DNA of 36,693 bases. Origin: Polyangia bacterium. GTDB taxonomy: Bacteria > Myxococcota_A > Polyangia > Polyangiales > Sandaracinaceae. The position numbers and the translations under genes were made by a program. Numbering within the stretch: the first letter of the stretch is position 1; every line of letters begins with the position of its first letter. Shown here one piece after another: positions 8,085-33,540 of the stretch. Location: assembly GCA_030426845.1 (NCBI GenBank), contig JAUHXR010000055.1, forward strand, positions 1 through 36,693. Direction: 5' to 3'. Below the pieces are notes generated by a model, which had not been told where the DNA came from, searched no databases, and saw only the letters and a program-made list of their open reading frames with translations.

Positions 8085-8213
8085 GCGCCGGAGAGTACAC
8101 ACGCGGCGCGCGTTCGCTAGGAGCGGCCGCGTCGCGTAGGTGTCACGCCGATTGCCGTTTCGCCGCAGGCGTCGCCGGGCGGCCGCGCCATGCTCGCGGC
8201 GAGGAGACGAGCG

Positions 8214-8429
8214 ATGACGACGGTACACATCCGAGTGAGCCAGAGCTCCGCCGAGCGGCGGGCCCGCGCCGAGCATCGGCGCCTTTGCGCGGAGATCTCT
8301 GCGCTGGAGAAGCAGGCCGACCCCCAGACCGAGCTGCTGCGGGCGCTGCGCGTGTGCCGGGTCTTCATCGAGACCGAGATGCGGCGGCGCGGCTGGCCGG
8401 ACGGGCGCGTCGCGCACACGGCGAGCTGA
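8214..8429 (+). CDS. Small hypothetical protein, 71 residues
   Basis: The ATG at 8214 is preceded by GAGGAG at 8201-8206 with a 7-base gap, a better signal than the in-frame ATG at 8190. The product is charged and almost entirely helical: a short strand MTTVHIRVSQ, then an Arg/Glu-rich helix with heptad character through CAEISALEKQADPQTELLRAL, and a second helix RVFIETEMRRRGWPD. No signal, membrane span or family that I recognise. It is divergent from thioredoxin 2 (129 bases between). Existence is supported by the ribosome-binding site and plausible composition only. Confidence 0.55.
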   Translation: MTTVHIRVSQSSAERRARAEHRRLCAEISALEKQADPQTELLRALRVCRVFIETEMRRRGWPDGRVAHTAS

Positions 8430-8493
8430 GAGGGGGCGAGGGCGGCCTCCGGGCAGGTCGCGCTCGTCGAGCCGCTCGAGGAGGTCGTACGGG

Positions 8494-9192
8494 TCACGCG
8501 GTCAGGAGGCGCATAGGCGCGGGCCAGCGCCCGTGCTCGGAGAGCGGCACGAAGCGCAGGGTGCTGAACTCGTAGTGGAAGGCGCGCCGCGCGCGCTCCT
8601 TCATCGCGTCGCGGTGCTGGGCGCCGTCGACGTCCGGGGCCCGGCCGCGGACCATGCCGATCATGTCGCGCTCCGTCTTCCACATGCTGAAGGTCGAGAA
8701 GGTGTTGAGCGGCCGGTAGGCGACGGTCGCGCGGGTGACGCCGGGATGATCGCGGACCTGGCGCTCGACGGGTCGGCCCCAGCGCTCGAAGCGGAGCGTC
8801 TCGGTCAGCCGGAGGCGCGCGAAGGTGACCCCGACGACGGGGCTATCGGGGTCGGCGACGTCGGGGTACAGCGGGGCGTCGTCGAGGCCGCGGTAGGTGC
8901 CCCAGCGGCGGTAGAAGCGCAGCCGTACGTGCCAGCCGGGCTCCGCGAAGACGGGGTAGGGCGGGGCGTCGAGGAAGCGCTCGAGGTGGTCCTCGTGCTC
9001 CCAGCGCGCGAAGAGCACGAGCGTGGTCCAGTGGTAGCGACCGGGCAGCCACACCGACGCGCCCATGCTCATCGGGAGCAGGCACTCGGCGTGGCGCAGG
9101 CCCGGGACGCGCCTCAGCGCGGCGCTGCTCACGAGGCGCGCGGCGACGCGGTGCAGCGGGGCCTGGATCAGGTGATAGCTGAACAGCTCCAT
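8494..9192 (-). CDS. Spheroidene monooxygenase (CrtA)-like protein
   Basis: 232 residues from ATG 9192; the frame is open for another 900 codons upstream, but that part is antisense to other genes. The pattern is that of CrtA-like proteins: PGLRHAECLLPMSMG, then TTLVLFARWEHEDHLERFL (the segment comparing source and target), GVTFARLRLTETLRF, and late in the protein NTFSTFSMWKTERDMIGM followed by RRAFHYEFSTLRFVPL. CrtA oxidises spheroidene in purple bacteria with haem; many CrtA-like homologues occur in genomes without that pathway and are uncharacterised. No carotenoid gene is near, so I call the family only. It may belong to the dimeric alpha/beta-barrel superfamily, which would account for the two similar halves (inference). 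Confidence 0.75.
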   Translation of the reverse strand: MELFSYHLIQAPLHRVAARLVSSAALRRVPGLRHAECLLPMSMGASVWLPGRYHWTTLVLFARWEHEDHLERFLDAPPYPVFAEPGWHVRLRFYRRWGTYRGLDDAPLYPDVADPDSPVVGVTFARLRLTETLRFERWGRPVERQVRDHPGVTRATVAYRPLNTFSTFSMWKTERDMIGMVRGRAPDVDGAQHRDAMKERARRAFHYEFSTLRFVPLSEHGRWPAPMRLLTA

Positions 9193-9321
9193 CGCGGACT
9201 CGGGGCTCTCGAGTATCCCACGCCGCGCGTCGAACGCGCGCAACCGCCCGCGCCGTGGGTCGATGAGCGGGCCATGCGCAGGTCGAGGACGACTCGGCGA
9301 TGCCAGCGGAGGGGGTGAGGC

Positions 9322-11094
9322 GTGGGACGGATGCTGGGGCAGCTCGTCTGTCAGGGGTGCGGCGATCGGTTCTGGCCGGACGACCACGGCGCGCCCGTGC
9401 TCGCGTGTCCGCGGTGCGGCGCAGGGCACGCGAACCCCGACGCCGTCCCGCTGCCCGTCTGGAAGCTGCCCCTCACCGCGCCGGCGACGCACGCGGTCCG
9501 GGGCTGGGCCGCGCGTCATTGGCTCGACGAGCTCCCGCGCGTCGGCCTCAGCGGCCCGCTCGCGGCGCAGACGAGCGCGAGCGGGGCTCACGACGGATTC
9601 CGCTACCTCGCGTGCTCCGGCCACCTGCTGACCTATACGTCGGGGAGGCGCCTCGGGCAGGACGGGACATGGACGTACGTCTTCGTGGCCGCGCAGCCGC
9701 CCGCGGTCGGCGGCGAGGGGTCGATCGGCCGGTGGCGCCCGGCCCGCGGCGGGGTGTGGACGTACACCGCGCGGCGGGTCGGCGCGCCGGAGCTGGAGCG
9801 CGACCTCCTGCCGGAGATCACGGGGGCGCTCCGCGCGGCCGGGCATGCGCCGCTCCACCCTTGGGTCGAGGCCGAGGCGCCGACCCCGCTGCCGAGGGAG
9901 GACGTCGCGCTCGTCCTCCGCGGAGGCCCCGCGCCGGGTCACGCGCTCGAGAGCCTCGACCTCACCTGCGACGGCTGCGGCGCGGCCGTCCAGGTGACCG
10001 GGCTCGTCGGGCGTCGCTGCGTCTACTGCGGCGCCCCGCAGGCGCTCGACCCGGCGGTGGAGGCGGCGCTCCGTGGCTACCGGCTCCGGGTCCACGCGGC
10101 GCAGCTCGGGGGCGCGCCGTCCCTCATGAACGCTGCCTGGCGAGGTCGCGCGTCGGGCGAGGGGATGAGCCTGGCCTGCGTGGTGTGCGGGGCGCCCAAC
10201 GCGCACGCGCCGGGGGCGACCGACGAGCGGTGTGGCGCCTGCGGCGCGGCGCTCCTGCCCTCGAGCGCCGCGCGGGCGCGGACGCTCGAGGCCCAGGACG
10301 GTCCGCGTCGCGCGGCCCTCGCTGTCGCGGCCTACCGTGAGGCCGCGCAAGCGTACTTGCTGGAGGGGGCAGGCGGAGGCCTGCTGGTCTGCCTCGCCGC
10401 GTGCGGGCTCCTCGGCGGGGCCATGATGGGGGCGAGCGTCGTCTTCCGCCTCGCGCGCGGGCATCACGGGTCGCCGCCCCTCGCGATCGTGATCCTCGGG
10501 GCGCTCTGGCTGCTGGGGCTCCTCGGCGTGTTCGTCGTCTCCGTGCGCGGGCGCCGGAGAGCGTCGCGGTGGCGCTCGCGGGTCGCGCTCCTCGCGGAGC
10601 AGCTCGGCGGGGAGCTCGGCCATGGGGCGCGGACGCTCGACGCCTGGGCGAGGCGGTGGTGGGCCGATCGGCTCGCGTCGTCCTGGCTCCGCGACGCCCC
10701 GGGGCGCGGCGTCGTCTCGGCGCAGATCGCGGGCTTCCCGGTCGCGCTCTGCGTCGCACCGGAGGACCCGTGGGGGACGCGCGCCCACGTCGCGGTCCTC
10801 GTCGCGTGCGCGCTCCCGCGCGACGTCGTTTACTGGATCGACCACGGCGCGGCCGCGGCGCTGGGAGGCGAGCTGGCGGAGCTCGGCTTCGAGGTCCGCC
10901 TGCGCACGGGCGGGGTGGTGGTCGAGGCGCGCCCGCGCCTTCGAGCCGCGATCGCCGCGGACCCGCAGCGCCTGTCTCTGCTCGGGCCCGTGGCCCACGC
11001 CGCGGCCCGACTCGCGCACCTGCTCCGCGCCGAGCCGCCGCGCGAGGTCCCGCCCCCGCTCGACTCGACGACGGGACGCGTCCGCGGTACCTGA
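9322..11094 (+). CDS. Membrane protein with three zinc ribbons
   Basis: 590 residues. Three four-cysteine zinc ribbons can be read: CQGC/CPRC (Cys10, 13, 29, 32), CDGC/CVYC (about 215-235) and CVVC/CGAC (about 286-310). Between the first and second is a beta-rich domain with DGTWTYVFVAAQP. Two close hydrophobic spans follow at about 353-380 and 388-410, with Arg-rich flanks, then a soluble C-terminal region of about 170 residues with WARRWWADRLASSWL. I know no named family; the layout suggests a cytosolic zinc-binding head anchored in the inner membrane. The GTG start at 9322 has GGAGG about ten bases upstream; ATG at 9331 is an alternative. The YndJ-like gene follows after 12 bases, so they form an operon. 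Confidence 0.85.
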   Translation: MGRMLGQLVCQGCGDRFWPDDHGAPVLACPRCGAGHANPDAVPLPVWKLPLTAPATHAVRGWAARHWLDELPRVGLSGPLAAQTSASGAHDGFRYLACSGHLLTYTSGRRLGQDGTWTYVFVAAQPPAVGGEGSIGRWRPARGGVWTYTARRVGAPELERDLLPEITGALRAAGHAPLHPWVEAEAPTPLPREDVALVLRGGPAPGHALESLDLTCDGCGAAVQVTGLVGRRCVYCGAPQALDPAVEAALRGYRLRVHAAQLGGAPSLMNAAWRGRASGEGMSLACVVCGAPNAHAPGATDERCGACGAALLPSSAARARTLEAQDGPRRAALAVAAYREAAQAYLLEGAGGGLLVCLAACGLLGGAMMGASVVFRLARGHHGSPPLAIVILGALWLLGLLGVFVVSVRGRRRASRWRSRVALLAEQLGGELGHGARTLDAWARRWWADRLASSWLRDAPGRGVVSAQIAGFPVALCVAPEDPWGTRAHVAVLVACALPRDVVYWIDHGAAAALGGELAELGFEVRLRTGGVVVEARPRLRAAIAADPQRLSLLGPVAHAAARLAHLLRAEPPREVPPPLDSTTGRVRGT

Positions 11095-11106
11095 GGCGGG
11101 CGCTCC

Positions 11107-11985
11107 ATGACCGAGCTCGCCCTGCTTCGCGCTCTGCTCCTCGGGAGCCTGATCGTCGCGTCGCTCGGGACGCACCGGCTGTTCTTCTCGGCGCGATCCT
11201 TCCTGGCGCGATCCTGCCTGGCGCGATCCGTCCCCGCACGGTCCGTCCCTGCGCGGGCGCGCGCGCACATCGCCCTCAACGTCGTGGGGCTCGCCTGCGC
11301 GGCGGCGGGTCTGTACTCGCCCGTGCCGGTCCTCGCCGTCGGCTGGCTGGTGTTCTGTGCCGGCCAGCTCGCGTGGTTCGCGTGGCGCGACCGCCGCGCG
11401 CTTCGCTCCCTCGCGGGCCTCGCGGGCGCGGTGCCGCTCCTCTTCAGCAACGTGTCCGCGGTCTGGATCGTCGGCGGCGCCAACGACCTCGGGATCCTCG
11501 GCTACGGTCCGCACTTCAGCTTCTACGCGGCCCTCCACGGGGTGGTGCTCGGCTGGATCCTGGTCGGCGCGATCGCGGGCCTCGCGCAGCGCGACGGGCC
11601 CGACCGCACTCTCTACGGAGCGGCGGTGATGGTGTGCTTCGCCTCGTTCCTGCTCATCGCGGTGGGGATCGATCAGCTCCGCGCGATCAAGCCGGTCGGG
11701 GTGATCGGGCTGTCGCTCGCCATCCCGGCCGCGCAGCTCGTCTTTCTCCGCCGCGCGTGGTCCCGCCACCGCGGCGCGTTCGCGCTCGGCGGCGTGAGCC
11801 TGCTCGGGCTCGTGTTCACGCTGACGCTCGCGTGGCGCAACGAGCTGGGGATGGCCGCGTTCCCCGCGCTGCTCGAGGTGCGCGGGATGGTCTCGGCCCA
11901 CGGGGTGATCAACGCCGCGGTCGTGGCCCCGAGCTTCCTGCTCGCGGTGATCCTCGACGGCGACCCGCCCGACGCGGCGGCCTGA
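11107..11985 (+). CDS. YndJ-like multi-pass membrane protein
   Basis: 292 residues with seven or eight hydrophobic spans. The segments GPHFSFYAALHGVVLGWI (an HF motif at the start of a span) and the C-terminal VSAHGVINAAVVAPSFLLAV (HGxxNA) match the pattern of the YndJ family, whose function is unknown. After the first span, residues 29-48 are a pentapeptide repeat of the form ARS(F/C/V)(L/P), encoded by a 15-base tandem DNA repeat. The ATG at 11107 is 12 bases behind the stop of the zinc-ribbon membrane gene, so the two are probably co-expressed and may act together. The stop is 3 bases from the convergent S2P-like gene. Family assignment is moderate; the membrane topology is clear. Confidence 0.78.
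   Translation: MTELALLRALLLGSLIVASLGTHRLFFSARSFLARSCLARSVPARSVPARARAHIALNVVGLACAAAGLYSPVPVLAVGWLVFCAGQLAWFAWRDRRALRSLAGLAGAVPLLFSNVSAVWIVGGANDLGILGYGPHFSFYAALHGVVLGWILVGAIAGLAQRDGPDRTLYGAAVMVCFASFLLIAVGIDQLRAIKPVGVIGLSLAIPAAQLVFLRRAWSRHRGAFALGGVSLLGLVFTLTLAWRNELGMAAFPALLEVRGMVSAHGVINAAVVAPSFLLAVILDGDPPDAAA
11191..11250 (+). repeat. 15-base in-frame tandem repeat (four units)
   Basis: Four head-to-tail 15-base units starting GCGCGATCC at 11191, 11206 and 11221, with a more diverged fourth (GCACGGTCC) at 11236. The first two differ by one base. They lie inside the YndJ-like gene in frame and code for ARSFL, ARSCL, ARSVP, ARSVP in a positively charged loop. Since 15 is a multiple of three, copy-number change would lengthen the loop without a frameshift. 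Confidence 0.85.
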
Positions 11986-11988
11986 GCG

Positions 11989-12663
11989 TCAGCCGGGCGC
12001 CGCCTCGCTCACCCTCGGCGCGCGCAGGTGCTTGCGCCAGTTGTCGTAGGCGATCGTCGCGGCGAGGTAGACGAGGACGGGCTGCACGATCCACGCGCCG
12101 AGCGCGGCCATCCCCGCGAGGAGCGCCAGGCTCACGTAGGTGGCGACGCGGAGCGCGCGGTCGGGGCCGAGCGCGCGGCGGAGGATGGCCTGGAGCACCA
12201 GGCCGCCGTCGAAGGGGATCGCGGGGAGATAGTTGATCGCGGTCAGGACGAGGTTGCAGCCGCCGAAGATCGCGACCGCGTCCGCGACGTGCGGCGGCCA
12301 CGCGCTCGGATCGAGCCACGCGAGGGCGGCGTAGCTCGCGCCCGCGAGGGCGGCGTTCATGGTGGGGCCGGCGCTCGTGCGGACGAGCTCCTCGACGAAG
12401 CCGGGCGGGGGGCCGGCGTAGTCGATGCGGCCGGCGCGGGTGAGGACCATCCGGTCGATGCCCTTGCCGTAGGCGAGCGCGACGGCCCAGTGGCAGCCGA
12501 GGTGCAGGCCCGTGCCGAGCATGAACGAGGCGACGACGAGCAGGCCATCGAGCCAGGTCGCGCCGGCGAAGAAGGTGCTGCCGATGATCAGGAGGGCCTC
12601 GACGTTGGTCTGAACCCGCGTCCCGAAGAGCTTCAGGAGCGTGAACGACTGGTCCCCGTACAC
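11989..12663 (-). CDS. Site-2-protease (M50)-like membrane protein lacking the catalytic Glu
   Basis: 224 residues with about six hydrophobic spans. The N-terminus FTLLKLFGTRVQTN is the usual M50 opening. Where active enzymes have HExxH, this protein reads HLGCH: zinc ligands His54 and His58 are kept, but Glu is replaced by Leu55 (codon CTC). The later M50 motifs are intact: GPTMNAALAG (Asn103) and NYLPAIPFDGG with Asp152, the third zinc ligand. It may therefore bind zinc or substrate without cleaving, or use another residue. The only usable start is GTG 12663, because an in-frame stop lies three codons upstream of it. Target and partner unknown. It converges on the YndJ-like gene with a 3-base gap. 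Confidence 0.85.
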   Translation of the reverse strand: MYGDQSFTLLKLFGTRVQTNVEALLIIGSTFFAGATWLDGLLVVASFMLGTGLHLGCHWAVALAYGKGIDRMVLTRAGRIDYAGPPPGFVEELVRTSAGPTMNAALAGASYAALAWLDPSAWPPHVADAVAIFGGCNLVLTAINYLPAIPFDGGLVLQAILRRALGPDRALRVATYVSLALLAGMAALGAWIVQPVLVYLAATIAYDNWRKHLRAPRVSEAAPG

Positions 12664-22892: not shown

Positions 22893-24206
22893 CTACATCG
22901 TGTGCCCGCCGGCCGACGCCTCGGGCCACGGGTCGGTGAGGAAGTTCGGGCCCTCGTAGTCGTTGAGCCGGCTCACCCGCCGCAGCCCCCGGCCGGTGCC
23001 GTTCTGCCCCGTCTGACCGAGCGAGCAGTTGCGCGGTCCGCCGAAGGTCCCGCTCGGATCGAAGCAGCCGTCGGTCCAGAGCTGGATGGTCCGCTGGTTC
23101 CAGCCGCCGAGCCAGTCCCCGTGGAGCGAGCCGCCGGGCGTGCCTCGGTCCGACGAGAGGCGCCACTGGTCGACGCCCGCGCCCGCACCGTCGCGCCCGT
23201 TTGGGTAGTAGACGAGGTAGGTAATTTGCGGGACCCGGTAGGGGTGGCTCGCGGGGCAGGGGTCGTTGTTGTTGACGAACGCGGTGTGGCTCAGGTGGTC
23301 GTCCGAGCGCAGCACCGGCGCGCCGGTGCCGTCCACTGCGAGGCACTGCGGGAACTGGATCGAGGCGATGATCGAGTCGCCGGGGTTGCAGTCGAGCGGG
23401 ATGCGGCTCTGCGACGAGTGCGTCGAGCCGCTCACCCCGCACATCCAGGTGAGCCGCGTGTTGGCGGTGAAGGTCTCGCCTGCCGAGCCGCCCGGGCTCA
23501 CGTTGCCCGCGAGCAGCTCGACCCCCGGCGGCAGCGGGTGGACCTCCGAGGGGCGATGGCTCTTGTAGTAGAGGATGATCTGATCGGGCACGACGATGCT
23601 CGGGCCGTCGGCCGAGCGATCGAGCATCGCGGGGATCCAGTAGGCGGAGCGGTTGAGCTCGAAGCCCTGACAGGTCCCGCCTCCCGACTCGAGGATGCTC
23701 GCCGGGTTGGACGAGCCCGGGGGCTCGAAGACGGTGCCCGCGTGGGTGCGGGTGTTGCCCCAGAACATGTGGAGGTGGGCCGCGCCCGGCTGGCCGGGGT
23801 AGACGATCGGGTCGTCGTGGGCGAAGTGGGAGTACTGGCAGCCCACGCGGAACTGGCCCTGGCCGCCGGGCCCGGGGCCGTTGTCCGGTGGGCTCAGCCC
23901 GAGCGTGAAGTCGTCGTGCTCGAAGCCGAGCGCCTCGATCGCGGCCTGGGAGTCGCCTTCGTGCTGCCGAAAGAGAGGGTCGCGGTTGCGGATGGACTCG
24001 TAGCTCGGGCTCGCGTGGCCGCCCCCGTCGTGATCTCCCGCGTCCCCGATGGGCGGACCGGCGTCGTCCGGCGTGTCCCCCGCGTCCACCGCGGCGTCGA
24101 CCGCCACCGCGCCCGCGTCGCGGACCGGCCCCCCGTCGTCCGGAGGACCGTCCGCGTCGCACGCCGACAGGACGAGGAGGGCGATCGTGAGGCTGGTTCC
24201 GCGCAT
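22893..24206 (-). CDS. DUF1996-domain lipoprotein
   Basis: 437 residues from ATG 24206. Lipobox VLSAC (Cys16), then an Asp/Ala/Gly/Pro-rich linker to about residue 60. The rest is one DUF1996 domain: FRVGCQYSHFAHDDPIVYPG, then AAHLHMFWGNT (HLHxFxGN signature), SAYWIPAMLD, and the C-terminal CPASHPYRVPQITYLVYY and GGSLHGDWLGGWNQRTIQ with final cysteines. DUF1996 occurs in fungi, actinobacteria and myxobacteria; its function is unknown, and the conserved His/Asp clusters suggest metal or carbohydrate binding (inference). It is on the same strand as the tandem DOMON-like lipoprotein, 145 bases downstream of it. Confidence 0.9.
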   Translation of the reverse strand: MRGTSLTIALLVLSACDADGPPDDGGPVRDAGAVAVDAAVDAGDTPDDAGPPIGDAGDHDGGGHASPSYESIRNRDPLFRQHEGDSQAAIEALGFEHDDFTLGLSPPDNGPGPGGQGQFRVGCQYSHFAHDDPIVYPGQPGAAHLHMFWGNTRTHAGTVFEPPGSSNPASILESGGGTCQGFELNRSAYWIPAMLDRSADGPSIVVPDQIILYYKSHRPSEVHPLPPGVELLAGNVSPGGSAGETFTANTRLTWMCGVSGSTHSSQSRIPLDCNPGDSIIASIQFPQCLAVDGTGAPVLRSDDHLSHTAFVNNNDPCPASHPYRVPQITYLVYYPNGRDGAGAGVDQWRLSSDRGTPGGSLHGDWLGGWNQRTIQLWTDGCFDPSGTFGGPRNCSLGQTGQNGTGRGLRRVSRLNDYEGPNFLTDPWPEASAGGHTM

Positions 24207-25944: not shown

Positions 25945-26112
25945 ATGGAACCTGGCGACGAGCTCGACGACGCGCGTGGCGGCCTCCTCCTCGGGGGCGC
26001 GGTCGCCGCCCTGTTCTTCGTCGTGCTCGGCGGCGTCTACCTCACCGAGGGCCTCCCCGGCGTCGCGGGCATCGGGACGGCCGCGCTCGGCCTCTTCTAC
26101 CTGTCGTCATGA
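25945..26112 (+). CDS. Small membrane protein, 55 residues
   Basis: ATG 25945 to the TGA at 26110-26112, which overlaps the ATG of the PLD gene in an ATGA tetranucleotide. A short acidic N-terminus (EPGDELDDARGG) is followed by two hydrophobic segments (LLLGGAVAALFFVVLGGVYL and AGIGTAALGLFYL) with a tight turn between, so it is probably a two-span hairpin in the inner membrane. No family recognised. Support comes from the coupled overlap with a clear gene and the clean membrane pattern; the ribosome-binding site is poor. Confidence 0.6.
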   Translation: MEPGDELDDARGGLLLGGAVAALFFVVLGGVYLTEGLPGVAGIGTAALGLFYLSS

Positions 26113-27161
26113 GCGCCCTCCGTCTCCTCGACGGCGCCCCCGAGGCGTACCCCGCGATGATGGGCGCGATCGCGTCCGCGCGGCGGTCCGTGCTCCTCGA
26201 GATCTACCGGCTCGACGCGGCCGGGATCGGCGCGGACTTCCTCGACGCGCTAGCGGACGCGCGGCGTCGCGGCGCCCGGGTGGAGGTACGGGTCGACGGC
26301 TGGGGCAGCGCGGTCACCGCGCCGGCCCTCGCGGAGCGGCTCGAGGCCGCCGGTTGCGAGCTGCGCGTCTACAACCGCCTCCGCGACACCCTGTGGGGCC
26401 GCTTCGATCGCAACCATCGGAAGATCCTCGTGGTGGACGAGCGCGTCGGGTTCGTGGGCGGCCTCAACCTCGCGGACGAATACCTCGGCGGCCCGCAGGG
26501 CGCGCCGTGGGCCGACGTGGCGGTCCGGGTCGAGGCGCGCGGCTGCGCCGCCCTCACCCGCGCGGTGCGGCGCGAGCACGGGCGCGCGACGATCGATCGC
26601 GACGTCGACGTCTGGCTCAGCGGTCGCGGCGGGGGCTGGCGGCTCCTGCGTCGGTACCGGCGCGCGTTCGAGGACGCGTCGCGCCGCATCTGGCTCGCGC
26701 ACGCCTACTTCCTGCCGGACCGCCGGCTGGTGCGCCGCCTCGTCCGGGCCGCGCGGCGCGGGGTCGACGTCCGCCTGTTGATGCCGGCCCGGAGCGACGT
26801 CCCCCTCGCGACCCACGCGATCCGCGGCCTCTACCCGCGCCTTCAGCGCGCGGGCGTGCGCATATTCGAGTGGGAGCGCTCCGTCCTCCACGCCAAGCTC
26901 GCGCTCGTGGACGATCGCACGACGCTGGTGGGCAGCTTCAACCTCGACCCGCTCTCGTTCATGAACCGCGAGTGCCTGCTCGACGCCGCGTCGCGATCGC
27001 TCGCAGGCCAGGCGGGGGCGTGGCTCGAGGCGCGGTTCGACGACGCGCGTGAGGTCCCGGAGTCGTCCGGCTCCTGGTTCGATCGACGGATCCGCGCGCC
27101 GCTCGGGCTACGGCTGCGCGACGTCACCTGGCGCGCGGCGCGGGCGCTCGCTGCCGGGTGA
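26109..27161 (+). CDS. Phospholipase D/cardiolipin synthase-like protein
   Basis: 350 residues from ATG 26109. Two HKD motifs are complete: HRKILVVD with His103, Lys105, Asp110, followed by GFVGGLN; and HAKLALVD with His261, Lys263, Asp268, followed by LVGSFN. Size and spacing fit the ClsB/ClsC group of cardiolipin synthases, which exchange phosphatidyl groups between phospholipids. No N-terminal membrane span, so it is cytosolic or peripheral; the small membrane protein encoded just upstream with a 4-base overlap could be its membrane partner (inference). It is followed after 91 bases by the amidoligase gene on the same strand. Members of the superfamily can be nucleases as well, but the context of a membrane protein favours lipid chemistry. 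Confidence 0.92.
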   Translation: MSALRLLDGAPEAYPAMMGAIASARRSVLLEIYRLDAAGIGADFLDALADARRRGARVEVRVDGWGSAVTAPALAERLEAAGCELRVYNRLRDTLWGRFDRNHRKILVVDERVGFVGGLNLADEYLGGPQGAPWADVAVRVEARGCAALTRAVRREHGRATIDRDVDVWLSGRGGGWRLLRRYRRAFEDASRRIWLAHAYFLPDRRLVRRLVRAARRGVDVRLLMPARSDVPLATHAIRGLYPRLQRAGVRIFEWERSVLHAKLALVDDRTTLVGSFNLDPLSFMNRECLLDAASRSLAGQAGAWLEARFDDAREVPESSGSWFDRRIRAPLGLRLRDVTWRAARALAAG

Positions 27162-27252
27162 GGCATGCCGCCTCGATCGTGCGCGAGCGCTCGGTCGCCT
27201 CACCGTGCCCCCCAGCGCCGGCGTCGGCACGCCAGTTGAAGAGCCTACGGGC

Positions 27253-28167
27253 ATGACGGTCGATATGACGGGCGGTGCGCCCGAGGCGCGCGTGGGAGTG
27301 GAGATCGAGCTCGGCGGGCTCGACGTGGACGCCTGCGCGCGGGTGGTCGCGGGGGTCTTCGGCGGCGAGGTCGCGGAGGAGGGTCGGTTCGAGCGAAGCG
27401 TCGCCACCGACCTCGGCGAGTTCCGCGTGGAGCTCGACGCGGGCTGGCTCAAGGCGCTCGGCCGGCACTCGCAGCCGCCGGGCGCGATGGAGGAGGCGGT
27501 CGGGCGCGCGCTCGAGACGGTCGCGACCGAGGTCGTCCCGTGTGAGATCGTCGCGCCGCCGATCCCGCGCCGCGATCTCGGCGCGCTCGACCGGCTCGTG
27601 TCTGCGCTGGGCGACGCGGGCGGCCGCGGCACCTACGAGGCGCTGCGCTTCGGCTTCGGCGTCCACTTCAACCCCGAGGTGGATCCAGAGGACGTCCACG
27701 CGGTGCGGCGCACGATGCAGGCCTTCGCCGCGCTCCACGGGCGGCTGTCGCGCGAGTACCACGTCGATCCGTCACGGCGCCTCACGACCTTCATCGACCC
27801 GTGGCCGCGCGCCTACCGCGACCGGCTGATGGAGCCCGGCTACCGGCCCCGAAGCATGAGCGCGTTGATGGACGACTACCTCGAGCTCACCCCGACGCGG
27901 AACCGCGCGCTCGATCTGCTGCCGCTCTTCGCGCACGTGGACGAGGCGCGCGTGCGCGATCGGGTCGGCGACGAGAAGGTGAGCCCCCGCCCGACGTTCC
28001 ACTACCGGATGTGCAACTCGCGCGTGGGGCACCCCGACTGGCGGCTCACGCAGGAGTGGACGTCCTGGCTCAGGGTCGAGGCCCTCGCGGCGGACCCCGC
28101 GCGGCTCGCGCGCGAGCTCTCGGTCGCGCCCCGCGCGCCGCTGCCCTGGGACGGTCTCCTCACGTGA
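27253..28167 (+). CDS. Putative amidoligase (glutamine-synthetase-like COOH-NH2 ligase)
   Basis: 304 residues from ATG 27253. The N-terminus EARVGVEIELGGL is the (F/V)GVEIE motif of the amidoligase_2 (PF12224) family, predicted ATP-dependent ligases of the glutamine synthetase fold that join a carboxyl to an amine. Other fitting parts are RFGFGVHFNPEV, the basic strand SRRLTTFIDPWPRAYRDRL, and the late segment PTFHYRMCNSRVGHPDW. The next gene encodes a peptidase C26/gamma-glutamyl hydrolase-like protein, overlapping by 4 bases (GTGA). Pairs of this ligase with a class-I amidotransferase-fold protein recur in bacteria and point to making and breaking gamma-glutamyl amides. The substrate is unknown. 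Sure of the pairing; family assignment fairly sure. Confidence 0.8.
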   Translation: MTVDMTGGAPEARVGVEIELGGLDVDACARVVAGVFGGEVAEEGRFERSVATDLGEFRVELDAGWLKALGRHSQPPGAMEEAVGRALETVATEVVPCEIVAPPIPRRDLGALDRLVSALGDAGGRGTYEALRFGFGVHFNPEVDPEDVHAVRRTMQAFAALHGRLSREYHVDPSRRLTTFIDPWPRAYRDRLMEPGYRPRSMSALMDDYLELTPTRNRALDLLPLFAHVDEARVRDRVGDEKVSPRPTFHYRMCNSRVGHPDWRLTQEWTSWLRVEALAADPARLARELSVAPRAPLPWDGLLT

Positions 28168-28850
28168 GCGTGCGTCCGCTGGTCGTCGTCACCACCTCGG
28201 CGCACCGCTCGCGCCTCTACCCGGCGCTCCGGGCCGCGGTGCAGCTCGCCGGCGGGCGGCCCTGGCGCCTCGACCCGCGCCGCCCCCGACCGGACTGGGG
28301 CCGCGCCCGCGCGCTGCTGCTCGGCGGCGGGATCGACGTGGACCCGAGCCGCTACGGCGCGCCACGCCGTCCTGGCGCGCGCTACGAGCCGGAGCGCGAC
28401 GAGCTCGAGCTGAGCGCCCTCGCGCGCGCGGCGGAGCGCGACCTGCCGGTGCTCGGCATCTGTCGGGGCGCGCAGCTGATGAACGTCGCGGCCGGCGGCA
28501 CGCTGCACCTCGATCTGAGCGCGGTGGTGCCGGGCCACTCGCCCCGGGTCCGGCTCCGCGCGTTCAAGCCCGTGGACGTGCGCCCCGACACCGCGCTGCG
28601 ATCGGCGCTCGGGCGCAGCCGCCTGCGCGTGAACTCGATCCACCGGCAGGCGATCGACGCGGTCGGCGACGGGCTCACGGTGAGCGCGTTCGACGACCTG
28701 GGCGTCGTGCAGGGCGTCGAGCGCCCCGGCGCCTCGTTCTTCGTCGGCGTGCAGTGGCACCCCGAGCTGATGCTCCACCACCTCGCGCAACGTCGCTTGC
28801 TGAGGCGATTCACCGCCGCGGCTCGCGCGGACCGGAGCGCGGAGACCTGA
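28164..28850 (+). CDS. Peptidase C26/gamma-glutamyl-GABA hydrolase-like protein
   Basis: 228 residues from GTG 28164 (SVRPLVVVTTSAHR), the GTG overlapping the amidoligase stop. It has the class-I glutamine amidotransferase fold and the PuuD/gamma-glutamyl hydrolase features: LLLGGGIDVDPSRYG (52-64), the nucleophile elbow LGICRGAQLMNVAAGG with Cys100, VNSIHRQAID, and the catalytic QWHPE with His199 and Glu201. The triad is complete. PuuD-type enzymes cut gamma-glutamyl amides; together with the coupled ligase this suggests a two-step amine modification. The stop lies inside a 14-base tandem duplication (28835-28862). Confidence 0.92.
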   Translation: MSVRPLVVVTTSAHRSRLYPALRAAVQLAGGRPWRLDPRRPRPDWGRARALLLGGGIDVDPSRYGAPRRPGARYEPERDELELSALARAAERDLPVLGICRGAQLMNVAAGGTLHLDLSAVVPGHSPRVRLRAFKPVDVRPDTALRSALGRSRLRVNSIHRQAIDAVGDGLTVSAFDDLGVVQGVERPGASFFVGVQWHPELMLHHLAQRRLLRRFTAAARADRSAET

Positions 28851-29222: not shown

Positions 29223-29615
29223 GTGAACACCAACCCCATCCTCACCACGCTCAAGGGCGCCTACCGTTTGATGCAGTCCCTCGACATCCCGGACCTGCGC
29301 GGCCGCGCGATGGACCGCGCCGACTCGATGCTCGCCGGTTACGGCTACACGCGCGGCCCCTCGCTCGTCTCGCGCGTCGCGACCCACGCGGTGACCTTCG
29401 GCGCTGGCGTCGCGGTCGGCGCGGGGGTGGGCGTGCTGCTCGCACCCAAGGCGGGCGCGGAGACCCGTCGTGAGCTCGCCGAGGCGATGGAGGACCTCTA
29501 CTCCCGCGCTCGCGAGTCGCTCGGCGCAGAGCCCAGCGCGGAGGAGCCCGCCTCGCAGAGCGCGAACGAGCGGGCGCCCTCGAGCCCCGAGTCGATGAGC
29601 GCGCCGGCCAACTGA
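29223..29615 (+). CDS. YtxH-domain protein
   Basis: 130 residues from GTG 29223, with AAGGAG six bases upstream. The middle carries the YtxH signature, one glycine-rich membrane span AVTFGAGVAVGAGVGVLLAPKAG followed by AETRRELAEAMEDLYSRA. The C-terminal 35 residues are Glu/Ser/Ala-rich and disordered. YtxH proteins are general-stress proteins in Bacillus, where ytxH is under sigma-B; this fits their position ahead of an Rsb module. The TGA stop is directly followed by the GTG of the next gene with no gap, so translation is probably coupled. Confidence 0.87.
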   Translation: MNTNPILTTLKGAYRLMQSLDIPDLRGRAMDRADSMLAGYGYTRGPSLVSRVATHAVTFGAGVAVGAGVGVLLAPKAGAETRRELAEAMEDLYSRARESLGAEPSAEEPASQSANERAPSSPESMSAPAN

Positions 29616-30668
29616 GTGTCCCGCGCCCCCACCTCAGGCCCCCCCCACGTGCAGGCAGGCGACCGCCCGGTCGCCTCCCCGCGCGTGGCTGGATCGACGA
29701 CCGCGGCAAGGCCGCGCTCGACTCCACCCGGGCCAGCCGCCAGGCTCCACGGCGTGGCTGCCTCCCTCGCCGTGCACGACGCCGTCTGGGTGGCCGCGCG
29801 CGGAGACGTGGGGACGGCCCGCCGGGTCGCGATGCGCGTCGCCCTTGCGCGACCCGAGCTCGAGCCGGCGGTGGTCGGTCTCGTGGCGACGGAGCTCGCG
29901 ACCAACCTGGTCGAGCACACGGAGGGCGGCGTCCTCCAAGCGTTCGCGGACGCCGAGGGCCTCGAGCTGCTCGCGGTCGACGCGGGCGCGCGCGTGGCCT
30001 CCCGCTCCGGCCTGCGCGCAGGGCTGCAGACGATCGCCGAGCAGAGCGACGCGCTCGAGGTCGACGCGACCGAGGCAGGCAGCGTGCTGCGGTGTCGCTT
30101 CGGTCCGCCCGCGCGCGTCCGTTTCGGGCTCGTACAGGCGCCCCTCCGAACGTGCGATGGCTCGGGCGACGGGCTCGCGATGCGGTGCAATGCGGAGGGC
30201 TTCAGCGCGGTCGTCCTCGACGTGCTGGGCCACGGGCCGAACGCGAGCCGGGAGCGCGACGCCATCCTGAGCGCGCTCGACGCGACCGCGTGGGAGCGCG
30301 ACCCGGACGCGCTGGTAAGCGTGGTCGAGGGCGCGACCCGTGGGGGCCGAGGCTGCGCGCTGCGTTGGGTCTCGGTCGAGGGGGGCGCGCTCAACACGCT
30401 GAGCGCGGGGAACGTGAGCGGGGTGGTCCTCCGGACGGACGGACACACCCGCCTGCTGGACCGCCCGGGCCTGATCGGTCGCCGGGTGGACATCCGGCTC
30501 CGCACCCACCCGTGGGACGACTCGTGTCGCCTCGTCGTCCACACCGACGGGCTCTCGATCCGTCAGCTCGCTCCCCGCCGCGCGGGGGCCCCCGCGCTCG
30601 AGGCCGGCCGACTCTTTCGGGCAGCCGCGCGCACGCGGGACGACGCGACCGTGCTGGTGGTGGGATAG
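29616..30668 (+). CDS. RsbT-like ATPase fused to RsbX-like (SpoIIE/PP2C) phosphatase
   Basis: 350 residues if started at GTG 29616, directly behind the YtxH stop; the first 45 residues are low-complexity Pro/Ala/Arg, so GTG 29754 is a possible true start. Residues about 52-160 are a GHKL/RsbT-like ATPase domain with the N box VATELATNLVEH (Glu93, Asn97), but the G1 box reads VDAGARV where RsbT has DxGPGI, and the G2 box is degenerate. Residues 168-350 are a PP2C/SpoIIE-type phosphatase: VLDVLGHG (Asp202), HTDGLS (Asp311) and DDATVLVV (Asp343) retain the metal ligands. RsbX in Bacillus dephosphorylates RsbR and RsbS and resets the stressosome; this protein probably does the same. Confidence 0.88.
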   Translation: MSRAPTSGPPHVQAGDRPVASPRVAGSTTAARPRSTPPGPAARLHGVAASLAVHDAVWVAARGDVGTARRVAMRVALARPELEPAVVGLVATELATNLVEHTEGGVLQAFADAEGLELLAVDAGARVASRSGLRAGLQTIAEQSDALEVDATEAGSVLRCRFGPPARVRFGLVQAPLRTCDGSGDGLAMRCNAEGFSAVVLDVLGHGPNASRERDAILSALDATAWERDPDALVSVVEGATRGGRGCALRWVSVEGGALNTLSAGNVSGVVLRTDGHTRLLDRPGLIGRRVDIRLRTHPWDDSCRLVVHTDGLSIRQLAPRRAGAPALEAGRLFRAAARTRDDATVLVVG

Positions 30669-31924
30669 TGTCCTCGCGCGACTCACGCGCGCCGCGCGCG
30701 CAGACTCGACCGCAGGGCCTCCACCCGGTGCCGGCCGAATCGAGCGCTGCGAGCCCCGACCCGAGAGACGAAGACCGAGCCGAGCTCGCGCGCCTCCGCG
30801 CCGAGCTCGCGGAGACCAACCGCGGCGTGGTCGCGCTCCACGCCGACCTCGACGAGGCCGAGCGGCGTCGCAACGACTTCCTTGCGATGCTCGCCCATGA
30901 GCTTCGCAACCCGCTCGCAGTGGCGCGACTCGCCCTCGACGACATCGACCGCGAGGGCTCGAGGGAGATCCTCCACCGGCAGCTCGGCCAGCTCACGCGG
31001 CTCGTCGACGACCTGCTCGAGGCCTCGCGCGTGGTGCGCGGCAAGGTGTCGCTGCGCATGGAGCACGTCGAGCTCACCGAGCTCGTCGACACGCTCGTCC
31101 GCGACCGCGCGGCGGTGCACACCGCCCACGCCTTCGCGTGGGAGCGGCCCGCCTCGCCGATCGACGTGAAGGGCGACCCGGCGCGCCTCCGGCAGGTGCT
31201 GACGAACCTCCTCGACAACGCGCAGAAGTACTCGCCCGAGGGCACCACGATCGAGGTCGCGCTCACGGAGCGCGACGGCCAGGTCTCGCTCGCGGTGCGC
31301 GACGAGGGCCGCGGCCTGACCGCCGAGGAGCGCCGAAGGGTGTTCGACCTCTTCGTGCAGGCGGAGAGAACGCTCGCGCGCGAGCCTGGCGGGCTCGGCA
31401 TCGGGCTCACCCTGGTGCGTCACCTCGTGCAGCAGCACGACGGGGTCGTCTTCGTGGAGAGCGAGGGCCTCGACCGCGGCTCGCGCTTCGTGGTGGAGCT
31501 GCCGCAGGGCGGGGCGCCGGTCGCGTCCTCGGCTGCGTCCTCGCCCGACGCGGAGGTCACGCTCGCCGGGACGCGGGTCCTGCTGGTGGAGGACAACGAC
31601 GACCTGAGGCTGCTGCTCGCCGCTCGCCTGCGTCGCCACGGCCTGGAAGTGGACGAGGCGGAGGACGGGCTCGCGGCGCTCGCGACCCTCGAGCGGGGCG
31701 CCTACGACGTCGTGGTCGCCGACGTCGGCCTCCCCGAGGTCGACGGCTTCGAGCTCGCGCGGCGCGTGCGCGCGCGGTGGCCGTCCCAGCGCCTGATCGC
31801 CCTGACCGGGTACGGCTCGACGGAGCACCGGCGCCGCGCAGCCGACGCCGGCTTCGATCGGCACCTCGTCAAGCCGGTCGAGCTTCCTCAGTTGCTCGAG
31901 GCCATCGGCCGCGCCAAGACCTGA
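30668..31924 (+). CDS. Hybrid histidine kinase with C-terminal receiver domain
   Basis: 418 residues; GTG 30668 overlaps the preceding TAG by one base. A disordered N-terminus leads to a coiled coil containing ETNRGVVALHADLDEAERRR, a segment typical of histidine kinases linked to Rsb modules. The kinase core has the H box FLAMLAHELRNPLA (His77), N box LTNLLDNAQKYS (Asn184), G1 VRDEGRGL and G2 GGLGIGLTLV. The receiver (about 302-417) has Asp309/Asn310, phospho-acceptor Asp352 in VVVADVGLPEVDG, Thr380 and Lys402. There is no sensor or membrane domain, so the input must come from partners, most likely the stressosome. No output-domain response regulator is adjacent; one elsewhere may be the target. 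Confidence 0.94.
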   Translation: MSSRDSRAPRAQTRPQGLHPVPAESSAASPDPRDEDRAELARLRAELAETNRGVVALHADLDEAERRRNDFLAMLAHELRNPLAVARLALDDIDREGSREILHRQLGQLTRLVDDLLEASRVVRGKVSLRMEHVELTELVDTLVRDRAAVHTAHAFAWERPASPIDVKGDPARLRQVLTNLLDNAQKYSPEGTTIEVALTERDGQVSLAVRDEGRGLTAEERRRVFDLFVQAERTLAREPGGLGIGLTLVRHLVQQHDGVVFVESEGLDRGSRFVVELPQGGAPVASSAASSPDAEVTLAGTRVLLVEDNDDLRLLLAARLRRHGLEVDEAEDGLAALATLERGAYDVVVADVGLPEVDGFELARRVRARWPSQRLIALTGYGSTEHRRRAADAGFDRHLVKPVELPQLLEAIGRAKT

Positions 31925-31940
31925 CCTCACCGAGGAGCTC

Positions 31941-32747
31941 ATGCCGAACAAGAAGAAACTCTCCGCCCGCCTGCACGACCGGCGCGACGCGGTCCTGGCC
32001 GCCTGGCTCAAGGACCTCGACGGCCAGCTCGACCGCGACACGCGCGGCTTCCGCGACGACGCGTCCACGATCCTCGACCTCCTCATCACCCAATGCGGCC
32101 ACGCCGAGGAGCGGTGGGACGAGGCCGCCGACTCGCTGACCGAGCTCGCGCGCGCACGCGTCGCAGCGGGCTTTGCGACCGACGAGACCATCACGCTCGT
32201 GTCGGCGCTCCGCTCGGCGGCGCTCCGCGAGGTAGCCGCGCTCGACGACATCGAGCTCCTGCGGCACCTGTCCAAGCTGCTCGATGTGTTCCTGCGCTAC
32301 CTCGTCGACGCCTACGTCGAGGCGCGCGACCTCGTGATCGCGCGGCAGCAGGAGGACCTGCTCGAGCTGTCGACCCCCGCGGTGAAGCTGTGGGACGGCA
32401 TCGTCGCGGTGCCGCTCGTGGGCACCCTCGACAGCCGCCGCGCGGTGTCGGTGATGGAGTCGCTGCTCAACAAGATCTCCGAGACCCAGTCGACGATCGC
32501 GATCATCGACATCACCGGCGTGCCGACCGTGGACACCCAGGTCGCGCAGCACATCTTGCGCACCGTGGCCGCGGCGCGGCTCACCGGGGCGCGCTGCATT
32601 CTCTGCGGGATCCGCCCGTCCATCGCGCACACCATGGTGGAGCTCGGCATCGAGCTGAGCCAGGTGGAGACCCACGCCAACCTCGCGGCGGCCTTCGCGG
32701 CTGCGCTCCGCTCTCGCGGGCTGGACGTACGGACGAGCGATGCGTGA
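31941..32747 (+). CDS. rsbR: RsbR-type stressosome protein (RsbRD N-domain plus STAS)
   Basis: 268 residues from ATG 31941, with GAGGAG five bases upstream. The N-terminal 130 residues are an all-helical RsbRD_N-type domain (ARLHDRRDAVLAAWLKDL near the start), not the globin-like domain of Bacillus RsbRA. The STAS domain spans about 150-258: DGIVAVPLVGTLDSRRA, then IAIIDITGVPTVDTQVAQHI, in which Thr199 of VDT aligns with the phosphorylated Ser of RsbS, and CILCGIRPSIAHTMVELG. RsbR forms the stressosome core and is phosphorylated by RsbT. Its stop overlaps the RsbS start by eight bases. The helical N-domain is the likely sensor or docking part, with unknown ligand. Confidence 0.93.
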   Translation: MPNKKKLSARLHDRRDAVLAAWLKDLDGQLDRDTRGFRDDASTILDLLITQCGHAEERWDEAADSLTELARARVAAGFATDETITLVSALRSAALREVAALDDIELLRHLSKLLDVFLRYLVDAYVEARDLVIARQQEDLLELSTPAVKLWDGIVAVPLVGTLDSRRAVSVMESLLNKISETQSTIAIIDITGVPTVDTQVAQHILRTVAAARLTGARCILCGIRPSIAHTMVELGIELSQVETHANLAAAFAAALRSRGLDVRTSDA

Positions 32748-33105
32748 CGACGAGGCCTCGAGCCGCACCGCGATCCTCGCGATCGGCAACACGCTGATCG
32801 CGACCCTCCAGGGGTCGATCGACGACCGAGCGGCCCTCGCGCTCAAAGACGATCTCTCCCGCCGGGTGGTCGCCACGGCCGCGTCGGGCGTGCTGATCGA
32901 GCTGAGCGCGATCGACATCGTCGACTCCTTCATCGGCCGCGTCATCGCGGACATCGCGGCCGTCTCCAAGCTGCTGGGCGCGCGCGTCGTGGTCGCGGGG
33001 ATGCGCCCCGCGGTGGCGATCACGCTCGTCGAGCTGGGCCTGGAGCTCCCCGAGGTAGAGACGGCGGTGAACACGGAGCAGGGGCTCGCCCTGCTCGGGC
33101 GCTAG
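32740..33105 (+). CDS. rsbS: RsbS stressosome scaffold (single STAS domain)
   Basis: 121 residues, a single STAS domain of normal RsbS length. It starts at ATG 32740 inside the end of rsbR. Characteristic parts are TAILAIGNTLIATLQGSIDD and ELSAIDIVDSFIGRV, where Ser63 in DSF is the site RsbT phosphorylates in the Bacillus protein, and VVAGMRPAVAITLVELGLEL. Unphosphorylated RsbS holds RsbT in the stressosome; phosphorylation releases it. All expected residues are present. It is followed by rsbT after three bases. Confidence 0.94.
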   Translation: MRDDEASSRTAILAIGNTLIATLQGSIDDRAALALKDDLSRRVVATAASGVLIELSAIDIVDSFIGRVIADIAAVSKLLGARVVVAGMRPAVAITLVELGLELPEVETAVNTEQGLALLGR

Positions 33106-33108
33106 CGT

Positions 33109-33540
33109 ATGGTCTCCGACAGCGTCCGGCCCCTCGCGCGCGAGGCGCAGGTGATGCCGATCGTGTCAGACCACGACGTCGTGCTCGTGCGGCGCGCGGC
33201 GCGCGAGCTGGCCGAGGAGATCGGCATCGGGCTCGTCGCGCGGACCAAGCTCGTCACGGCCTGCTCCGAGCTGGCCCGCAACGTCCTCGAGCACGCGGGC
33301 GGCGGCCGCGCGAGCCTCGCGGTGGTCTCGCCGGACGGCGCTCGCCGGCACGGGGTCGAGGTGGTGTTCGCCGACGACGGGCCGGGGATCGGCGACGTCG
33401 AGCGGGCCTTCGAGCGCGGCTACAGCACCAAGCGCGGGCTCGGGCTCGGGCTCGGGGGCAGCCGCCGGCTGGTCGACGACTTCGCGCTGTCGACCGAGCC
33501 GGGCGAGGGGACCACCATCCTCATCCGCACCTGGGCGTGA
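33109..33540 (+). CDS. rsbT: RsbT switch kinase (GHKL anti-sigma-factor-type ATPase)
   Basis: 143 residues from ATG 33109; an internal ATG at 33154 with GAGG upstream is an alternative that still leaves the whole domain. The ATPase boxes are intact: N box TACSELARNVLEHAGGG (Glu54, Asn58), G1 FADDGPGI (Asp90), and the glycine stretch GLGLGLGG (110-117). RsbT phosphorylates RsbS and RsbR on stress and then leaves to activate a downstream partner (RsbU in Bacillus). No RsbU is encoded here, so its target is unknown; the hybrid histidine kinase or a diguanylate cyclase/PP2C elsewhere are possible. It is the last gene of the operon, followed by a strong hairpin. Confidence 0.94.
   Translation: MVSDSVRPLAREAQVMPIVSDHDVVLVRRAARELAEEIGIGLVARTKLVTACSELARNVLEHAGGGRASLAVVSPDGARRHGVEVVFADDGPGIGDVERAFERGYSTKRGLGLGLGGSRRLVDDFALSTEPGEGTTILIRTWA

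Follow-up and report, generated by a model that had tools for sequence, protein, structure and literature searches.

In a 36,693-nucleotide stretch of DNA from a Polyangia bacterium (the window, by which we mean the whole stretch analysed), we identified a well-formed copy of the known amidoligase-C26 gene pair. Our preferred explanation, which we regard as probable, is that this pair (27253-28850) lies among stress genes and reversibly forms gamma-glutamyl amides as a soluble module, and that the PLD-superfamily gene immediately upstream is a lineage-specific neighbour. Counting in favour of this explanation are the recurrence of a partner gene beside the amidoligase, a GS-like predicted fold, a set of invariant residues, the adjacency of PLD at a single locus, glutamate dehydrogenase-type genes near two amidoligases, and stress-type neighbours in several loci. 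Counting against it are a likely co-transcription with PLD and a domain fusion in a sister clade that hints at a membrane substrate.

Four same-strand genes at 25945-28850

The cluster consists of four genes on the + strand, all of which were independently called as coding on the basis of codon use. These genes and their downstream neighbours are as follows:

25945-26112, + strand: 55-aa predicted two-span membrane protein (hydrophobic spans 15-31 and 37-53), an orphan with no family match
26109-27161, + strand: PLD-superfamily enzyme, 350 aa, cardiolipin-synthase-like, with two HKD motifs and no TM span
27253-28167, + strand: putative GS-fold amidoligase (Amidoligase_2, PF12224), 304 aa
28164-28850, + strand: C26 hydrolase (PF07722) of class-I-GATase fold, 228 aa, GTG start, with Cys-His-Glu triad residues
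29003-29170, + strand: DUF1328 small membrane protein (PF07043), a stress-type neighbour
29223-29615, + strand: YtxH-like protein (PF12732), a stress-type neighbour
29754-33540, + strand: neighbouring stressosome-type module (SpoIIE-like protein, hybrid histidine kinase, RsbRD_N/STAS, STAS, and RsbT-like ATPase)

The 55-aa and PLD genes overlap by four bases (ATGA), as do the amidoligase and C26 genes (GTGA). The junction between PLD and amidoligase is without overlap and consists of a 91-nt gap (27162-27252). Because the two genes lie on the same strand across a short gap in which no terminator-like site was found, they are likely to share a transcript. A preliminary description of this DNA had reported four same-strand genes, two 4-base overlaps, intact motifs, and a two-span small membrane protein; gene calling, Pfam, and the positions of the hydrophobic spans confirmed these observations, whereas the interpretation built on them was, as a whole, partly supported. 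Upstream of the cluster, a gene on the - strand (22893-24206) encodes a putative lipoprotein with a DUF1996 domain.

Family, predicted fold, and conserved residues of the pair

The amidoligase matched PF12224 with 180 bits over profile positions 2-244 of 245 (Pfam gathering cut-off, 22 bits). In an alignment of 20 homologues, E17, E19, D62, E98, N140, E142, R246, H250, and R252 are invariant; the acidic, Arg, and His residues of this set, which starts with G-x-E-x-E, may have a catalytic role. No credible match was found when solved structures were searched by sequence. A structure model was built from nine input sequences (pLDDT 75.9, pTM 0.77) and compared with known folds by VIA-align: the best match had a Z of 9.9 and an rmsd of 4.0 over 199 aligned residues, and the top 50 rows were all glutamine synthetase-type (Z 9.9 to 8.7, about 200 aligned residues). 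Foldseek with the same model gave no match at E <= 0.001 (best E, 0.025), and hhalign against the genome's own GS, a thin template, matched nothing. By the VIA-align comparison, a GS-like fold is supported as a prediction, in line with the first description of the protein as a putative GS-fold amidoligase. No viral relatives of the amidoligase profile were confirmed.

The hydrolase scored 150.6 bits against PF07722, above the gathering cut-off, and is the sole strong C26 match in its own genome. Its Cys, His, and Glu residues are intact (GICRGAQ and QWHPE) and align with those of PuuD (6vtv) and Lin1909 (3fij); solved relatives are 3fij, 7d4r, and 6vtv. It had been called a PuuD/C26-like hydrolase with a full triad. 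The C26 assignment and the triad residues stand, but the name PuuD applies at the superfamily level only, as the score against the PuuD equivalog (NCBIfam NF008471) was 64.6 bits, below the cut-off of 266.

Two unrelated partner enzymes alternate beside the amidoligase

The comparison covered 46 amidoligase loci, drawn from Myxococcota and Pseudomonadota; 45 were profile-scored on six-frame translations and one was added later. In 38/46 loci, a same-strand C26 gene directly adjoins the amidoligase. In 5/46, all from Rhodobacteraceae (L005, L007, L009, L011, and L012; Rhodobacteraceae/Natronohydrobacter), a gamma-glutamylcyclotransferase (AIG2/GGCT) gene, recognised by PF06094 in L007 and by profile in the others, replaces C26 and lies upstream of the amidoligase. 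The other 3/46 have neither: L053 and L098 are without both, and L039 ends at a contig end. In each of the three complete copies examined, the AIG2/GGCT partner has a single hydrophobic span at its N terminus. On the tree, the GGCT-paired amidoligases form a clade of single origin (100/100), sister to the C26-paired alphaproteobacterial copies. The window's genome encodes a second PF12224 amidoligase on contig C112 (L046:3985-5715), immediately followed by a two-domain AIG2/GGACT gene; this pair lies a few kb from a serine recombinase-looking gene.

That two unrelated gamma-glutamyl-bond enzymes alternate as the partner is the strongest evidence for the inferred chemistry of the pair. The earlier statement that the amidoligase/C26 pairing recurs in bacteria is borne out by these counts; the pairing is chemically coherent and already published, since Iyer et al. 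(2008) described PF12224 paired both with a C26/GATase-like thiol peptidase and with AIG2/GGCT (PMC2588565). The amidoligase-AIG2/GGCT pairing is also present in Tn6164 (PMC3485107).

Several loci have further neighbours. A glutamate dehydrogenase-family gene lies upstream of the amidoligase in L036, with a similar gene in L038. RlmN, recognised by sequence, is upstream in Roseovarius loci and was taken as a plain neighbour. In L115 (6804-8378), C26 is encoded upstream of the amidoligase instead of downstream, and its long C-terminal extension bears a weak resemblance to PDZ.

In our preferred explanation, the functional unit would be the two-gene amidoligase-C26 module. The amidoligase would activate a carboxylate at the expense of ATP (the likeliest candidate is the gamma-carboxylate of glutamate) and then join it to an amine, and the Cys-His-Glu triad of C26 would cut the same type of gamma-glutamyl amide; the pair would thereby make and unmake a small gamma-glutamyl compound. 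PLD and the 55-aa membrane gene would form a two-gene unit of their own, probably brought together with the module inside the stress-gene neighbourhood (DUF1328, YtxH, and stressosome) rather than serving as a fixed pathway step.

Stress-type genes recur near amidoligase loci

Genes of the kinds found downstream of the window pair also occur elsewhere. L035 (genome G016) has an RsbRST-type run, homologous to the window module, near its amidoligase; DUF1328, DUF2383, and YtxH are near that of L054, DUF1328 is near that of L115, Usp is near that of L053, and OsmC is near that of L094. Peroxiredoxin-, OsmC-, CsbD-, and Dps-like genes lie near other copies, and L088 and similar gammaproteobacterial-type loci have an MscS-like channel gene divergently upstream. 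Next to the pair in L097, on the opposite strand (8144-12203), are NepR, an ECF (EcfG-type) sigma factor that includes a PhyR-type region, a probable sensor kinase, and a PLD-like gene of another kind; this gene content resembles an alphaproteobacterial general stress response locus.

As raw neighbour counts, these data are only suggestive of a stress-gene association. They bear on a narrower form of our explanation, in which the product would be a soluble gamma-glutamyl-amine or small gamma-glutamyl peptide that acts as a protectant (a compatible-solute or thiol/polyamine store) in osmotic, oxidative, or general stress. We find this plausible, if slightly short of probable: the MscS-type channel, the redox- and stress-type neighbours, and the stress regulators are consistent with it, as is the origin of some loci in marine and soda-lake Rhodobacterales, but the counts are inflated by synteny within related genomes. 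Iyer et al. likewise proposed glutathione-related or peptide metabolites for such pairs (PMC2588565).

Membrane domains accompany some related amidoligases

Four genomes of one related Myxococcota family encode an amidoligase fused to an N-terminal VTT/DedA domain (PF09335):

L033:6783-8417, VTT-Amidoligase_2 fusion (Pfam)
L034:6169-7998, VTT-Amidoligase_2 fusion (Pfam)
L035:6801-8489, VTT-Amidoligase_2 fusion (Pfam)
L039:8526-10151, VTT-Amidoligase_2 fusion (profile built from the other three fusions)

The fused amidoligases form one clade (96/95) with one origin, sister to the copies of the window and genome G179 (90/92). Leaving Iyer 2009 aside, we know of no published description of this fusion. 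Because such fusions and membrane-anchored cyclotransferase partners exist in relatives, a membrane-linked amide modification, a weaker form of the idea first put forward for this cluster, is possible, and so is a lipid headgroup as the target of the amidoligase. A fuller proposal would have the amidoligase of this clade work at the membrane, its substrate being a lipid that bears an amine or an amine linked to a lipid. The enzyme would be tethered to its own lipid-transporter-type VTT/DedA domain in the sister clade and linked to a PLD-type headgroup enzyme here, and C26 or an anchored cyclotransferase would reverse the reaction, so that a lipid headgroup would carry a reversible gamma-glutamyl modification; we judge this unlikely.

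The PLD gene is not conserved beside the amidoligase

The PLD protein matched PF13091 (PLDc_2) with 130.6 bits, matched PF00614 as well (Pfam), and has two intact HxKxxxxD motifs (HRKILVVD and HAKLALVD). Of its initial designation as a ClsB-like PLD with both HKD motifs, the motifs and the superfamily were retained and the ClsB name was not: the score against the ClsB equivalog (NCBIfam NF008427) was 199.7 bits, below the cut-off of 281.

The preliminary description had further coupled PLD and amidoligase in a pathway, and retention of PLD beside the amidoligase in relatives was set beforehand as the check. The two genes adjoin in 1/46 loci, the window alone; PLD is absent beside the amidoligase in all 45 others, including those of the same-family genomes G178 and G179. 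Across 183 genomes of the order, the amidoligase was found in 10 and PLD (E <= 1e-40) in 47, with no co-occurrence of the two (Fisher p = 1). Extending the search to the class (317 genomes) raised the amidoligase genomes to 14 and added no further PLD neighbour. The 55-aa protein has no Pfam/NCBIfam match and no homologue in the 183 genomes, and it was rejected as a conserved membrane anchor. With adjacency at a single locus and no co-occurrence, a PLD-amidoligase operon was likewise rejected as a conserved unit, and the coupled pathway was not borne out; a local functional link between the two genes may exist in the window's genome. The PLD gene at L097 was not counted as a case of conservation: it lies 1.8 kb off on the opposite strand and encodes a different, longer protein.

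These results weigh against the reading of all four genes as a single pathway for the reversible glutamylation, or other amidation, of an amine phospholipid headgroup, e.g., that of phosphatidylethanolamine (PE). We consider it quite unlikely. The shared strand, the 4-base overlaps, and the 91-nt gap agree with such a pathway, as do the VTT/DedA domain on sister-clade amidoligases and the membrane anchors of the Rhodobacteraceae GGCT partners. However, the nearest relatives have no PLD beside the amidoligase, and close homologues of the window PLD adjoin DnaJ, GroES-like, Cpn60, SPFH/Band 7, and M50 protease genes. PLD genes are also common in the window's genome, as its 16 PLDc_2 matches indicate, and the window amidoligase has no TM span. 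It also counts against this reading that undecaprenyl phosphate and further cargo are transported by DedA-family/VTT proteins; in its favour, one DedA protein, PetA of Bacillus subtilis, is a reported PE transporter (PMC12893004).

A very unlikely alternative is that the amidoligase tags a protein or peptide and C26 removes the tag: substrates of the C26 and GGCT families are mostly small gamma-glutamyl compounds, no conserved small ORF was seen beside the pair across loci, and the 55-aa protein, as noted, is without homologues in the order. In its favour, the Pup ligase PafA is among the GS-fold ligases (PMC2588565), and 4bjr was among the weak Foldseek matches.

Where to search for the substrate

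Knowledge of the amidoligase/C26 pair goes back almost two decades; a literature search found no reported substrate for it. The comparison made here narrows where to search. Three pointers lead to the membrane (the VTT fusion, which has a single origin among the sister-clade copies, the membrane-anchored GGCT partners, and the PLD neighbour in the window), and the repeated presence of stress-type neighbours suggests a protectant. Reversible lipid glutamylation, if demonstrated, would add a new type of lipid modification to those of bacteria; otherwise the module in the window is of a known kind and unremarkable. Of the new facts, two are the most useful: sister-clade amidoligases are fused to VTT, and GGCT takes the place of C26 within one orthologous family.

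Comparison with known systems

The window PLD shares two HKD motifs, PLDc_2 domains, and the lack of a TM span with ClsB and the wider PLD superfamily, but it falls below the ClsB equivalog cut-off and its neighbours differ. PuuA and PuuD constitute the gamma-glutamyl-polyamine pathway, which follows the same logic of a GS-fold ligase and a C26 hydrolase; the triad is common to the window C26 and PuuD (6vtv). In contrast, PuuA is a GS-family enzyme dissimilar to PF12224 in sequence, the window C26 is below the PuuD equivalog cut-off, and no puu genes were seen adjoining the window amidoligase-C26 pair. The PF12224-AIG2/GGCT system, a type present on C112 of the same genome, likewise pairs the ligase with a gamma-glutamyl-bond enzyme; the fold of the partner differs, as the window pair has C26. 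Relative to the PF12224 pair with a GATase-like neighbour described by Iyer et al. in 2008 (PMC2588565), the window adds an upstream PLD gene and 55-aa membrane gene, an addition present in 0/45 other loci. The ligase family and the adjacent, same-strand hydrolase of C26/GATase fold are alike in the two.
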